A stretch of DNA of 64,000 nt from Pseudomonadota bacterium. GTDB taxonomy: Bacteria > Myxococcota_A > UBA796 > GCA-2862545. The stretch covers positions 1 through 64,000 of the forward strand of contig CANJMY010000004.1 of NCBI GenBank assembly GCA_947475315.1. Reading direction: 5' to 3'. Positions 12,098-62,534 of the stretch are shown here, piece after piece. Made by a program: the position numbers and the translations under genes. The notes beneath the pieces were generated by a model. The model did no database searches and was not told the origin of the DNA. It worked only from the letters and a program-made list of their open reading frames with translations. Position 1 is the first letter of the stretch, and the number at the start of each line of letters is the position of its first letter.

Positions 12098-12153
12098 CGC
12101 TCGGAGCTCCGGTCGAACGCGCGTCGGCGCCGGTGGACCCGTTCGTACGATGA
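12094..12153 (+). CDS. 19-codon coupling ORF
   Basis: ATG at 12094 overlaps the carbamoyltransferase stop (ATGA), and its own TGA at 12151 overlaps the CPBP start (ATGA at 12150). It has a good ribosome site (GGGAGG, about 6 nt ahead), whereas the CPBP gene has none. The 19-residue product (MTLGAPVERASAPVDPFVR) is not recognisable. It may serve only to deliver ribosomes to the CPBP start, or it could be the true CPBP N-terminus in another frame. Confidence 0.5.
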   Translation: MTLGAPVERASAPVDPFVR

Positions 12154-12923
12154 AGCGCCGACTCCTCACCGAGGTGGCGGTGACCACCGCGGTCGTGCTG
12201 GTGGCGATCCGCCTGTGGCTGTCGCTGCTGGGGTCGGGGATCGACGCGCTCGGCGGCCTGCCGGCGATCGTCATCCCGGTGCTGTTCATGTGGGTGCCGG
12301 TGTGGGTGATGCGCGCGCAGGGCGATGACCCGGACGCTTTCCCGCTCGCCGTGCCGAGCACCGACGAGCGCGAGGTCTGGGCGCGGTCGCTCGAGGCGTT
12401 CGCGCTCACCACCGCCGTGATCACGCCGCCCTTCGTGGCGATCTACGCGTGGTGGTACGGCGACCTGTTCCCGTGGATCTCCAACGAGCTCTGCCATGTG
12501 TGGCGCGCGGTCTGCCCGATTTCGCGCCAGGTCCGGCACCTGTCGCCGGACTGGGTCTTTCCGACCGATCCCCTGCGGCTGATCGCCTACCACCTGCTGT
12601 TCGTCGCGCCGGGCGAGGAGCTGTTCTACCGAGGCTACGTCCAGAGCCGCTTGGATCAGGTCTGGGCGCCCCGCTGGAAGATCGCCGGCGCCACGCTGGG
12701 GCCAGGCTGGCTGGTGACCTGCGGCGTGTTCGCCCTCGGGCACAGCGTCGTCGCGTTCCAGTGGTGGCACTTCGCCATCTTCTTCCCCGCCTTGATCTTC
12801 GGGTGGCTTCGCGCGCGGACCGGACACGTCGTCGCGGGCGCGCTCTTCCACGCATGGTGCAACATCCTCGTCGCGTTCCTGGACGTGGCGTGGGGGCTGC
12901 AGACTCCGGGTCTGCACGGATAG
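12150..12923 (+). CDS. CPBP-family intramembrane metalloprotease
   Basis: A 257-residue polytopic membrane protein of the CPBP/Abi (type II CAAX-like) family. The catalytic Glu pair and Arg are in EELFYRG (Glu156, Glu157, Arg161). The two conserved His segments follow, in GHSVVAFQWW and in the last helix (ALFHAWCN). Members cut peptides inside the membrane, process prenylated proteins, or serve as sorting proteases for C-terminal anchors (myxosortases). Which applies here is not shown. Translation is probably coupled to the preceding mini-ORF. Confidence 0.88.
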   Translation: MKRRLLTEVAVTTAVVLVAIRLWLSLLGSGIDALGGLPAIVIPVLFMWVPVWVMRAQGDDPDAFPLAVPSTDEREVWARSLEAFALTTAVITPPFVAIYAWWYGDLFPWISNELCHVWRAVCPISRQVRHLSPDWVFPTDPLRLIAYHLLFVAPGEELFYRGYVQSRLDQVWAPRWKIAGATLGPGWLVTCGVFALGHSVVAFQWWHFAIFFPALIFGWLRARTGHVVAGALFHAWCNILVAFLDVAWGLQTPGLHG

Positions 12924-57119: not shown

Positions 57120-57218
57120 TCAGCGGGGGCCCGGAAGGCCTCGAAAACCCGGCCAGATGCGCGTCGGCACGGAGCTTGCTAACGGGTTGGCGGCGCATGG
57201 TGCGCGGTGGGGCGTCGC

Positions 57219-59789
57219 ATGCTCGGTTGGTTGAGCCTGGTCGGTTTTGCGCTCGCTGCGCCCCCGGATCACGCCCCGACGGGCGCCTCGTTCGGCACCG
57301 CCAGCGCGGGCAGCGCCATCACCCGTATGGTCATGTCCAAGGACAAGCTGCGGGTCGCGGGCGTGTCGGATGCGGGCGGCCTGCTGTCCGCGCGCAAGGG
57401 TCAGGTGATCCTGGTGGATGCCAGCACCTGGACCGTCGGCGAGACCTCGTTCGCGACCGACGAGTGCTACGCGCTTTCGGTGGCGGTCGCGCCGCGCGCC
57501 GCCGGCGGCGACTGGGTCTGGATCGGCTGCCAGGACGGCACCATCGAGACCTGGCTTTGGAAGAGCGGCACACTCTCCGCCTACAAGGGCACGGGCACCA
57601 AGGCCCAGGTGTTCGACCTGGCCTCGCTGACCGACGGCACCGCCGCTCGCAGCGTGATCGGCCTGTGGCCGGGGGCGACGGGCGACGTGCTCTACGCGCT
57701 CGATGACGGAGACGCGTCGCAGGACACGTACGCGCACAAGCTGTTCGTCACGGACGGCGAGCTGACCGAGGACACGACCTACGCGCCGTCGGGCATCTTC
57801 GGCGACGCCGATCCGATCGACGCGGTGCTGCGCCCCGGCCTGCTCAGCGACGACCCAGGCCAGGTCATCGTGGCGCACGGCGGGTCCAACTTCGCGATCT
57901 GGACGCTCTCGTCGGGCTTCGTCCAGCGCTCGCAGCTTGCCCTGCTGGCGCTCGACCCCACCGATCTCTCGCCACACGAGCTATCAGGCGCCTACGTCGC
58001 CGAGCGCGCGAACGACCGCATCTCGCGCTGGGACGGCACCACCTCGCCGAACTCCGTCGTCGTGCTGCGCGCCACCGGCCTGAACGCGCCGCGCTCGATC
58101 GTCTCGGTGACCGACTCCACGACGTCCGTCGTGTCGCACCTGGTGGCGGACGGCGACGGCAGCGGCAACCACCGCATCCAGGTGTTCGCCGACGTCACGG
58201 CCGAGCCGACCAGCGAGTTCAGCCTGGACTTCGTCACCGCCGACATGGTGTCAGGCCTCGACGGCTACGTGTTCGCCGGGACCGAAGGCGGCACCATCCG
58301 CGTGCTTACGCGGGGGCCGTGGGTCGACAAGGTCAAGCTGTCCAAGAGCTCGGCCGTGTCCGGCGACTCGGTCGACTTGACCTTCAAGTCCGACACCGAC
58401 GGCAGCTACAACGTCGTACAAGACGGCACCTACAGCGGCGGCGGCACCACGCTGTCGTCGGGCGACGTCACGGCGAGCGCCAGCGGCACGGCCAGCTTCA
58501 CGGTGGACTCCACCTGGACCGAAGGCGATCACTCGGTCTGGGTGCGCGTGACGGACGGCGGCGGTGACGTGGGCTACGCCCGCGCCGTGCTGACCATCGA
58601 CAACCCGCCGACCGGCGTGCAGCTGCGCGACGCGAACGTCGGGTTCATCAACCGCGGCATCGTCCTGAACTTCGACGCGCTCACCGCGTCGGACACAACA
58701 GGCTACGATGTGTACATCTCGCGCGACCCGTTCACCGACGCGGACTATCCGGACGGCAGTGGGCCCACGGGCGTCGTCGACGGCGTCACGTCTCCCATCT
58801 CGGTCGACCAGCCCACGGACTCCAGCACCGTGACGGTCACGATCCCCAAGCTGGTCAACGATACGACCTACTATGTCGCGGTACGCGGCAAGGATTCCAA
58901 GAGGTCCGGCCCCATGAGCAATGTGGTTTCCGAGACGCCCCGCGCCACCCTCTCCGCGTCCGACGTGACCGGCGAGGTTGGCGGTCCCCCCGCGTGGTGC
59001 GCCACCGGCCCCACGGGCCTGCTTGGCGGCATTGGCGTGCTGGGCGCGGCCGCCCTGATCCGCCGTCGTCGTGGCGCGCTCGCGGCGCTCGCGGTCGCGG
59101 CCCTGACCACCTCGTCCGTCGCGCGCGCGCAGGACGCGGAGGACGACGGCGGTCCGCCATCCACGCGCTCTCGTGGCCTGAGCCGCTTTGATCGCGACGT
59201 GACGCCCGCGTGGGGCAACTTCACGTTCGACGGCGGCAGCTACGCCTACAAGGACGCGACGATCCAGAGCATCTATGGCCAGCGCGGCGTGGACTTCCGG
59301 GTGTCGGCCGGCGTCCAGCTGTTCCGCTACGCCGAGGTCAACGTCGGCGTCGGCCTGATCACCAAGAAGGGCTTCACGGTGGACTCCACCGGCCAGACGT
59401 CGGCCGAGTACACCCGCCTGCAGATGGCGCCGTTCTCGCTGGACGCCCGCCTGCGGCTGCACGTGATCGACGAGCAGCCGGTCGTGCCGTTTGGCGGCGT
59501 GGGCGTGGACTGGATCTTCTGGCGTGAGACCCCGCTCGACGCCGACAAGGTGCCGGTGGCCGCGGGTCGCATCGTCGGCTCCAAGCTCGGCTGGCACTGG
59601 GACGCGGGCGTGAACATCCTGCTCGACACCTTCGCGCCCAACCGCGCGAGTGAGCTCGAGGCCCGCTCCGGCATCAACGACACCTGGCTGACCATCCAGT
59701 ACCGCAAGCAGATCGTCGGCAAGACCGGGGACGCCGGGCTGGATCTGGACGGCTGGACGCTGTCCGGCGGCCTGAAGATCGACTTCTAG
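57219..59789 (+). CDS. Fused protein: secreted propeller/FN3 region, Cys-TM-Arg4 sorting-like signal, then signal peptide and outer-membrane barrel
   Basis: One frame of 856 residues. Start to about 370: beta-rich, propeller-like, after a short signal peptide (MLGWLSLVGFALA). About 370-580: Ig/FN3-type domains ending YYVAVRGKDS...SNVVSETP. At 594: a Cys (AWCATG), a TM helix and RRRR (615-618), the pattern of a MYXO-CTERM-type sorting signal, normally the very end of a protein. Here it runs straight into a second hydrophobic stretch ending SVARA|QD (cleavage before 638), then an outer-membrane barrel of about 219 residues ending LKIDF. It may be a polyprotein, or an internal GTG (59037) may start the barrel. 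GTG 57207 is an alternative start. Confidence 0.75.
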   Translation: MLGWLSLVGFALAAPPDHAPTGASFGTASAGSAITRMVMSKDKLRVAGVSDAGGLLSARKGQVILVDASTWTVGETSFATDECYALSVAVAPRAAGGDWVWIGCQDGTIETWLWKSGTLSAYKGTGTKAQVFDLASLTDGTAARSVIGLWPGATGDVLYALDDGDASQDTYAHKLFVTDGELTEDTTYAPSGIFGDADPIDAVLRPGLLSDDPGQVIVAHGGSNFAIWTLSSGFVQRSQLALLALDPTDLSPHELSGAYVAERANDRISRWDGTTSPNSVVVLRATGLNAPRSIVSVTDSTTSVVSHLVADGDGSGNHRIQVFADVTAEPTSEFSLDFVTADMVSGLDGYVFAGTEGGTIRVLTRGPWVDKVKLSKSSAVSGDSVDLTFKSDTDGSYNVVQDGTYSGGGTTLSSGDVTASASGTASFTVDSTWTEGDHSVWVRVTDGGGDVGYARAVLTIDNPPTGVQLRDANVGFINRGIVLNFDALTASDTTGYDVYISRDPFTDADYPDGSGPTGVVDGVTSPISVDQPTDSSTVTVTIPKLVNDTTYYVAVRGKDSKRSGPMSNVVSETPRATLSASDVTGEVGGPPAWCATGPTGLLGGIGVLGAAALIRRRRGALAALAVAALTTSSVARAQDAEDDGGPPSTRSRGLSRFDRDVTPAWGNFTFDGGSYAYKDATIQSIYGQRGVDFRVSAGVQLFRYAEVNVGVGLITKKGFTVDSTGQTSAEYTRLQMAPFSLDARLRLHVIDEQPVVPFGGVGVDWIFWRETPLDADKVPVAAGRIVGSKLGWHWDAGVNILLDTFAPNRASELEARSGINDTWLTIQYRKQIVGKTGDAGLDLDGWTLSGGLKIDF

Positions 59790-60946: not shown

Positions 60947-61067
60947 GCGGACCTCAAGTGGTGTAGAAGGGCGGGGCCACCTAGCCCATGCGCCAACGGT
61001 GCGTCAAGCCTGCGGGCGGACGCGGAGTCGGATATTATGGGCGGACAGCTGGCTTGGAGTCGCTAAG

Positions 61068-62534
61068 ATGCGTCGTCATCTCCTTCCGTTCGTCACCGTC
61101 CTCGCGTACGCCTGCACCAACGGGGGCGCGGTCCCGAGCGACTTCAACTTCGACCAGCAGGTCGACGACGAGGCCGAGAACAACCAGGTCAGCAGCTCCA
61201 ACGTCAAGATGTGCGTCGGCGGCGCCAACGTCTACCTGATGTGGATCGACAACCGGAACAACTTCAAGGACGTGTGGTTCAACTCGTCCTCCGACGGCGG
61301 CGCCACCTGGTCGGGCGCCACCCGCGTGAAGCAGGGCTCGGGCGACGCCAGCGGCCTGTCGCTGGCCTGCACCGGCGACCACGTGTTCGCCGCCTGGGAA
61401 GACACCCGCGACTCCGACTCGGCCTACCCGAACATCTACGTCAACTTCTCCAACGACGCCGGCCGCACCTGGCAGGAACAGGACCAGCGGATCGATAACG
61501 ACCCCGAGGGTCGCTACATCTCCCTGGCGCCGCAGATCGCCATCTTCCAGGGCTCGGTGCACGTCGTGTGGTTCGACCAGATCAACGGCGCGCCCGAGAT
61601 CTTCATCGCCACCTCGTCCAACGCGGGCCGCAATTTCGGCGACCCCATGCAGGTCAGCGGCGATCCGGAGAACCCGGGCGAGTACTGGTCCGGCAACCCG
61701 CGCGTCGCCATGGACGACAAGGGCCGCACGCACATCGCGTGGGAGACCACCAAGAGCGGCACGCAGGAGATCTTCTATTCCCGCGTGAACGAGACCGGCG
61801 ACAACTTCACGCCGGCGCAGCGCGTGAACCTGGGCGAGAAGCCCGGCACGTTCTTCGCGTTCGCCCCGTCCATGGGCGTCAGCGGCGACAACGTCTACCT
61901 CGCGTGGCACGACACCCGCGGCGGCGACGGCCTCGACATGTTCTACAACTACTCGGCGAACGGCGGCGGGGACTGGCTCCAGGCGGCGGTCCGTCTTGAG
62001 TCCGACGCCCCCGGCTCCCACGAGAGCCGCGACGCCTCCATCGAGGTGGTGGACGACGTGGCCCACATGGTGTGGGAGGACAACGTCAACGGCGGCTACG
62101 ACATCCTGTACCGCACCGCCAAGGCCGGCGTGCTGGGTGACGCCGAGATCCGCCTGGACGGCGGCGACTCGCCCGGCACCGGCAACTCGGTCCACCCCAA
62201 GATCACCTCCAAGGGTGACCTGATGATCACGGCCTGGGAAGACCTCCGCTCCGGCGGGGACAGCGGCCGTAACGACCTGTTCTACAACTTCAACTCCTCG
62301 GCGGATCCGGCTCGTCCCTGGGACAAGAACCGCGACTACCGCCTGAGCAGCGTGCAAGCGGGCTCGTCGTTCACCAAGGACCTCAACGTCGGCACCGACG
62401 GCGAGCTGGTCTACACGGCGTGGCTGGACTTCCGCGGCGGTGAGGAAGACGGAGACGTCTACTTTGCCGCTGTGGTCCCCGGCGAGGCCATCAGCACCGC
62501 CGAAGACGCGGTCGCCGCCGGCCTCACCAAGTAG
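61068..62534 (+). CDS. Lipoprotein with BNR/Asp-box beta-propeller
   Basis: A 488-residue lipoprotein (VTVLAYAC lipobox). The body has at least four sialidase-type Asp-boxes (SSDGGATW, SNDAGRTW, SSNAGRNF and SANGGGDW) in a repeated pattern with W-x-D-N/T segments (MWIDNRN, AWEDTRD and AWHDTRG), so a six-bladed propeller is likely. Catalytic sialidase Arg and Tyr residues cannot be assigned, and a binding or scaffold role is as likely as an enzyme. The ATG at 61068 has GGAG 8 nt ahead; a start at 60999 would lose the signal peptide. Confidence 0.85.
   Translation: MRRHLLPFVTVLAYACTNGGAVPSDFNFDQQVDDEAENNQVSSSNVKMCVGGANVYLMWIDNRNNFKDVWFNSSSDGGATWSGATRVKQGSGDASGLSLACTGDHVFAAWEDTRDSDSAYPNIYVNFSNDAGRTWQEQDQRIDNDPEGRYISLAPQIAIFQGSVHVVWFDQINGAPEIFIATSSNAGRNFGDPMQVSGDPENPGEYWSGNPRVAMDDKGRTHIAWETTKSGTQEIFYSRVNETGDNFTPAQRVNLGEKPGTFFAFAPSMGVSGDNVYLAWHDTRGGDGLDMFYNYSANGGGDWLQAAVRLESDAPGSHESRDASIEVVDDVAHMVWEDNVNGGYDILYRTAKAGVLGDAEIRLDGGDSPGTGNSVHPKITSKGDLMITAWEDLRSGGDSGRNDLFYNFNSSADPARPWDKNRDYRLSSVQAGSSFTKDLNVGTDGELVYTAWLDFRGGEEDGDVYFAAVVPGEAISTAEDAVAAGLTK

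Follow-up and report, generated by a model that had tools for sequence, protein, structure and literature searches.

Does a gene that carries a sorting signal in its middle, with a second signal peptide and then a predicted outer-membrane barrel directly behind it, encode one protein or the precursor of two? The question is raised by a gene on the + strand at positions 57219 to 59789 of a 64,000-nucleotide stretch of DNA (the window, by which we mean the whole stretch analysed). It forms a single open frame of 856 aa, from ATG 57219 to the stop codon at 59787-59789; a further in-frame GTG at 57207 lies upstream of this ATG and would, as a start, add MGRR. The initial annotation had described Cys594, a transmembrane (TM) helix, RRRR at residues 615-618, a cleavage site ARA|QD and a barrel ending in an aromatic residue, and these coordinates and residues, like the uninterrupted frame, proved correct; the last residue is Phe.

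The successive parts of the gene, all read on the + strand, were delimited by sequence, profiles and structure models. The first signal peptide comprises residues 1-13 (MLGWLSLVGFALA|APPD, 57219-57257); it was recognised by eye, and A13 and P16 are conserved in at least 90% of cases. In an AlphaFold2 model of the full-length protein (mean pLDDT 78), residues 33-364 (57315-58310) form a predicted beta-propeller-like domain, for which Foldseek retrieved propellers such as virginiamycin B lyase with a TMt of about 0.7; for the model as a whole, the best Foldseek hits were multidomain proteins that are informative for the propeller and the fn3 domain only. An Ig-like (Big_13-like) domain is predicted at residues 384-460 (58368-58598) from the model and from a Pfam PF19077 match of 21.8 bits, below the cut-off of 27. 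It is followed by an fn3-like domain at residues 474-572 (58638-58934), assigned by the model and hhalign, with a Pfam fn3 score of only 15.8 bits, and this domain adjoins the sorting signal. The internal MYXO-CTERM (58998-59072) comprises Cys594 (codon TGC, 58998-59000), the TM helix and RRRR at 615-618 (59061-59072), where the sorting signal ends, and is matched in place by TIGR03382 at 18.5 bits (cut-off 15.85). The second hydrophobic segment, residues 619-637 (59073-59129), was delimited by sequence and conservation and ends in a signal-peptidase-I-like site, ARA637|QD. A low-confidence linker of residues 638-665 (59130-59213; pLDDT is below 50 over residues 592-661) leads to a predicted eight-stranded outer-membrane barrel at residues 666-855 (59214-59783), identified by a profile match, models and Foldseek. 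An ORF of 511 aa adjoins the gene at 60999-62534 on the + strand; it has a lipoprotein-like N-terminus and, by eye, sialidase/BNR-like repeats.

The draft genome that contains the window is fragmented (151 contigs) and 85% complete, and the fusion might on that ground be taken for a sequencing or assembly error, or for a recent and degenerate loss of a stop codon. Relatives were compared. Matches to the fused protein were found in 55 of 58 of them, most in a single open frame. The same fusion is present at 97% identity in an independent assembly from the same genus and extends across the order at 27-40% identity; a fusion of this type also occurs in three genomes of another family that consist of one contig each (G065, G130, G182), so that draft assembly is not its cause. 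The fused orthologues thus refute a sequencing or assembly error, and we give this explanation, recent degeneration included, practically no weight. The lost stop codon proposed in the initial annotation consequently fails as an error, since the fusion is conserved across the order, recurs in other classes and is found in the single-contig genomes; as an event in evolution, loss of a stop is the likely origin of the fusion. Two of the orthologues (L181 and L173) come from records titled Klebsiella pneumoniae and Rhodobacterales, which look like mislabelled metagenome bins. Another fused orthologue (L078:1340-4024) contains a long repetitive insert rich in Ala, Gly, Asp and Ser (SAGDD repeats) directly after the predicted second cleavage site and before the barrel.

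Conservation was then analysed at the junction itself. In an alignment of 37 fused orthologues, mean column identity is 32% and only 23 columns are invariant. Two of these columns are Cys594 and Ala637 (position -1 of the predicted signal-peptidase site), which every one of the 37 sequences has; Ala635 and Arg616 are kept in at least 90% of them. Comparison with the relative from the same genus gives a dN/dS of about 0.09 for the protein as a whole and of about 0.12 for the junction (residues 575-640). These sequence comparisons indicate that the junction is under purifying selection and is held like the rest of the protein. Across a wider sample of 82 fused junctions, at least two Lys or Arg residues precede the second hydrophobic core in every case, and A-x-A ends the second signal in 78; the latter count has to be read with the bias of the site picker, which favours A-x-A, and the columns of the 37-orthologue alignment provide a fairer test, free of that bias.

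An open frame maintained by selection across the junction would also be expected if the chain stayed uncut and linked the inner membrane to the outer as a single protein. Such a bridge is highly improbable: Ala637 is invariant and Ala635 nearly so, the second helix is separated from the barrel by only about 28 residues, and in many relatives the two halves function from separate genes. The initial annotation had offered as an alternative a second translation start at the internal GTG 59037, which would give two products beside the read-through chain. This GTG is in frame, and 55 of the 82 fused genes have some ATG, GTG or TTG in the helix ahead of the charged signal. GTG and TTG codons are, however, expected by chance in helices rich in Val and Leu; 27 of the 82 genes lack any ATG, GTG or TTG from which a second signal peptide with a charge could be made, ATG occurs in only 14 and the positions vary. 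Moreover, the upstream frame has no stop, so that the long chain would still be made. Starts at this place are thus not conserved, and there is very little chance that internal initiation accounts for the arrangement.

The barrel half was matched by the profile NF040596 (MXAN_2562 family) at 84.7-88.4 bits; because the cut-off of 100 is not reached, we call it a homologue of the MXAN_2562 family and not a member. Among 71 genomes of the class, 13 contain proteins that pass this cut-off. A separate model of residues 638-856 has eight predicted strands, and its best Foldseek matches are OmpA, NspA and OmpW (E 2e-8 to 4e-6); a sequence search of solved structures with the barrel returned no relative. 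An N-terminal ectodomain followed by a C-terminal barrel recalls an autotransporter, in which the barrel would carry the N-terminal part across the outer membrane. We consider this extremely improbable, as two hydrophobic membrane segments and a signal-peptidase-like site lie between ectodomain and barrel, the predicted barrel is of the eight-stranded OmpA-like type and too narrow for a passenger, and the two halves are separate genes in many relatives. The type Va class, defined by a 12-stranded barrel joined directly to its passenger, was likewise rejected, given the eight predicted strands and the intervening segments.

For the first half, the profile NF045522 (MXAN_2561 family) gave no match to the fused protein, and the half as a whole is not assigned to that family. 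The fn3 domain beside the tag nevertheless has homologues in other classes, in the fn3 of MXAN_2561-type proteins (hhalign probability 98.9, E 2.5e-17), whereas no homology was found by hhalign (0.4%) between the regions preceding fn3 in the order of the fused gene and in other classes. The conserved unit is therefore fn3, tag, signal peptide and barrel. MXAN_2561 (NF045522) and MXAN_2562 (NF040596) are thus the same pair in the same order, with a homologous fn3 beside the tag; they differ in being separate genes in many lineages and in having N-terminal domains unlike those found in the order of the fused gene.

To compare the fused and separate forms, 137 sampled barrels were labelled by hand. 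Eighty-two are fused, 75 to a MYXO-CTERM and 7 to a CFI-box-CTERM, and 55 are separate; as the genomes from outside the order were enriched for long open frames, 82/137 is not the frequency of fusion in the phylum. In the separate form, a gene ending in a MYXO- or CFI-CTERM lies directly upstream in 48 of 55 cases and terminates immediately behind its Arg run. The comparison with homologues called for by the initial annotation thus had a clear outcome: many relatives encode the halves in two neighbouring genes, the first of which stops at that very place, and where they are fused both signals are intact. In 36 of the separate pairs the upstream stop overlaps the start codon of the barrel gene, mostly by 4 nt (ATGA or GTGA) or by 1 nt. 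Such start/stop overlaps are the classic arrangement for translational coupling. As the pair occurs in relatives as a single fused gene or as two genes that touch, synthesis of the two parts seems to be kept in step in the bacterium.

On a tree of the barrels the fused or separate state changes at least 12 times, of which at least 7 changes are forced by well-supported branches; the tree, built with FastTree only and rooted at its midpoint, is approximate and counts changes of state irrespective of their direction. In one genus of the same order (g20; L064 and L072) an in-frame TAA breaks the frame 9 nt ahead of a new ATG. This looks like a fused gene split again, an apparent reversal to the separate form. 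The tag itself also varies. In seven of the sampled fused genes (L125, L131, L138, L142, L148, L153 and L158), a CFI-box-CTERM occupies the slot of the MYXO-CTERM and is still followed by the second signal peptide and the barrel; two of the seven were scored with NF041770 and the other five were recognised by motif. The CFI-box-CTERM proteins (NF041770) thus place their tag as MYXO-CTERM proteins do here and differ in the C-terminal domain itself. A literature search of limited coverage found no paper on CFI-box-CTERM and none on MXAN_2561/2562.

The tags and the processing machinery were then surveyed in the genome that contains the window. It encodes 25 MYXO-CTERM matches over the TIGR03382 cut-off, 23 of which end at most 7 aa from the Arg run. 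The two non-terminal matches are the fused gene and a TraB-like protein, and in both the tag is followed by another signal peptide and then an envelope barrel. The TraB-like protein (L123:3636-5936; G000:C49:22635-24935) is a second internal MYXO-CTERM fusion, unrelated to the first, in which a signal peptide, a passenger of ~25 aa, a MYXO-CTERM and a second signal peptide precede a TraB-like barrel that has calcium-type repeats and an OmpA domain; it scores 213 bits against NF033763, under the cut-off of 700. L204, L207 and L208 share this architecture, which in two other genomes comes with longer passengers (L207 and L208). The protein encoded by the fused gene shares with MYXO-CTERM proteins an N-terminal signal peptide (MLGWLSLVGFALA|AP, by eye) and a Cys, TM helix and Arg cluster scoring over the cut-off. 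Its tag is not at the extreme C-terminus; because 238 aa follow the Arg run, we adopted the name "internal MYXO-CTERM" as used for MXAN_5598.

A myxosortase is also present in the genome at the level of the general family: a myxosortase-like CPBP intramembrane protease with EELFYR and HAWCN motifs, encoded at 12150-12923 (+ strand) of the window, scores 121.6 bits against NF040914 (Mrt_core; cut-off 100). Its scores against MrtP (161.5 bits) and MrtX (130.3 bits) are both below the respective cut-offs; being closer by score to MrtP than to MrtX, it may represent a distinct subfamily of the order of the fused gene. MrtX-type matches were found in 27 of 29 relatives, and the genome also encodes the type II secretin GspD (507.8 bits). 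On sequence grounds the protease is a candidate for the cut on the Cys side. If it did not act there, signal peptidase I alone would free the barrel and the first part would be kept in the inner membrane by an uncut helix hairpin. The unreached MrtX family cut-offs are consistent with this, as is the signal-peptidase-type site, the most constrained feature next to the Cys. We regard it as fairly unlikely, because Cys594 is itself invariant, the genome combines an Mrt_core protease with many terminal MYXO-CTERM proteins, and MrtX cleaves such tags elsewhere (PMC11980579).

Combined, these results favour, with a probability of roughly three in four (about 0.77), a gene that encodes the precursor of two proteins, held as a hairpin in the inner membrane and cut on the Cys594 side and after Ala637. 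The first signal peptide would export the propeller/Ig/fn3 part and the MYXO-CTERM helix would act as a stop-transfer segment, leaving the Arg cluster on the cytoplasmic side. The hydrophobic segment behind it would re-enter the membrane as a second signal peptide; since nothing charged lies between RRRR and its core, it must borrow the Arg cluster of the tag, and the cytoplasmic tail of the tag would thus be the charged n-region of a signal peptide that has no charge of its own. From the resulting hairpin, signal peptidase I would cut after ARA637 and free the barrel for the BAM pathway, and the myxosortase-like protease would cut on the Cys594 side, once the tag had undergone the lipid modification that has been suggested for MYXO-CTERM. 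The N-terminal protein would then reach the surface via the type II system. Both parts would be produced one to one, the fusion being the single-chain form of a pair that is coupled elsewhere by start/stop overlap. We infer the topology, both cuts, the lipidation, the one-to-one output, the surface location and the joint working of the parts; the processing steps are drawn from the sequence and from Guo et al. 2025 (PMC11980579). Against this reading stand the protease, which passes only the general Mrt_core cut-off and falls under those of MrtX and MrtP, the barrel score below the NF040596 cut-off, and the lipid step, which in the literature, too, has the standing of a proposal. A hairpin with two cuts, as suggested in the initial annotation, is retained as the best-supported reading, with cleavage argued from the separate neighbouring genes and the conserved signals; its inner-membrane destination for the N-terminal product gives way to the surface predicted by the myxosortase model.

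If this reading holds, C-terminal sorting signals serve in nature as internal processing sites, recurrently and under selection, and one Arg cluster serves two export signals. The fused gene would provide a natural substrate for studying myxosortase on internal sites, and the swap to CFI-box-CTERM a route to the role of that little-described domain. Another implication is that such proteins will escape gene callers and tag searches designed around a terminal tag. Whether processed polyproteins are in Myxococcota, the phylum to which the protein families point, a general route to matched pairs of surface protein and barrel, in which the Arg tail also serves as the beginning of the following export signal, tags (MYXO-CTERM, CFI-box) are swapped and the pair shuttles between overlapping genes and one gene, is a wider proposition to which we give even odds.

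Several known systems resemble parts of this arrangement. Guo, Haft and Wall (2025) reported that MrtX cleaves MYXO-CTERM in M. xanthus and in E. coli, and proposed lipidation (PMC11980579). They described in MXAN_5598 of Myxococcus xanthus an internal MYXO-CTERM between an adhesin region and an outer-membrane barrel with OmpA domains, called internal motifs rare, suggested gene fusion and proposed processing of the first part (PMC11980579); the protein is also listed among vesicle proteins (PMC4158809). MXAN_5598 resembles the fused gene in combining, within one ORF, an adhesin-like N-terminal region, an internal MYXO-CTERM and an outer-membrane barrel at the C-terminus; it differs in its N-terminal and barrel families and its OmpA domain and is described as a single, atypical and rare case, whereas the fused gene has an MXAN_2562-like barrel and recurs through the phylum. 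TraA and TraB, of outer membrane exchange, similarly pair a MYXO-CTERM surface protein with a barrel protein and have overlapping ORFs (PMC11980579). They differ in being two genes and in the OmpA domain of TraB; by analogy, the parallel suggests that the present pair is a surface protein with its own outer-membrane partner, and MXAN_2561/2562, a family of unknown function, would become part of a conserved pair comparable to TraA/TraB. Signal peptidase also splits a bacterial polyprotein internally, at a second signal, in the case of the cytochrome b/c1 precursor (fbcH) of Bradyrhizobium, which comprises unrelated proteins and is not known to involve a sorting tag or a myxosortase. An internal MYXO-CTERM before a barrel being already published for MXAN_5598, the architecture is not new in kind; what is new, as far as the literature was searched, is its phylum-wide recurrence in another pair, the conservation of both signals, the tag swap, the start/stop overlap of the separate form and the presence of two unrelated examples in one genome.
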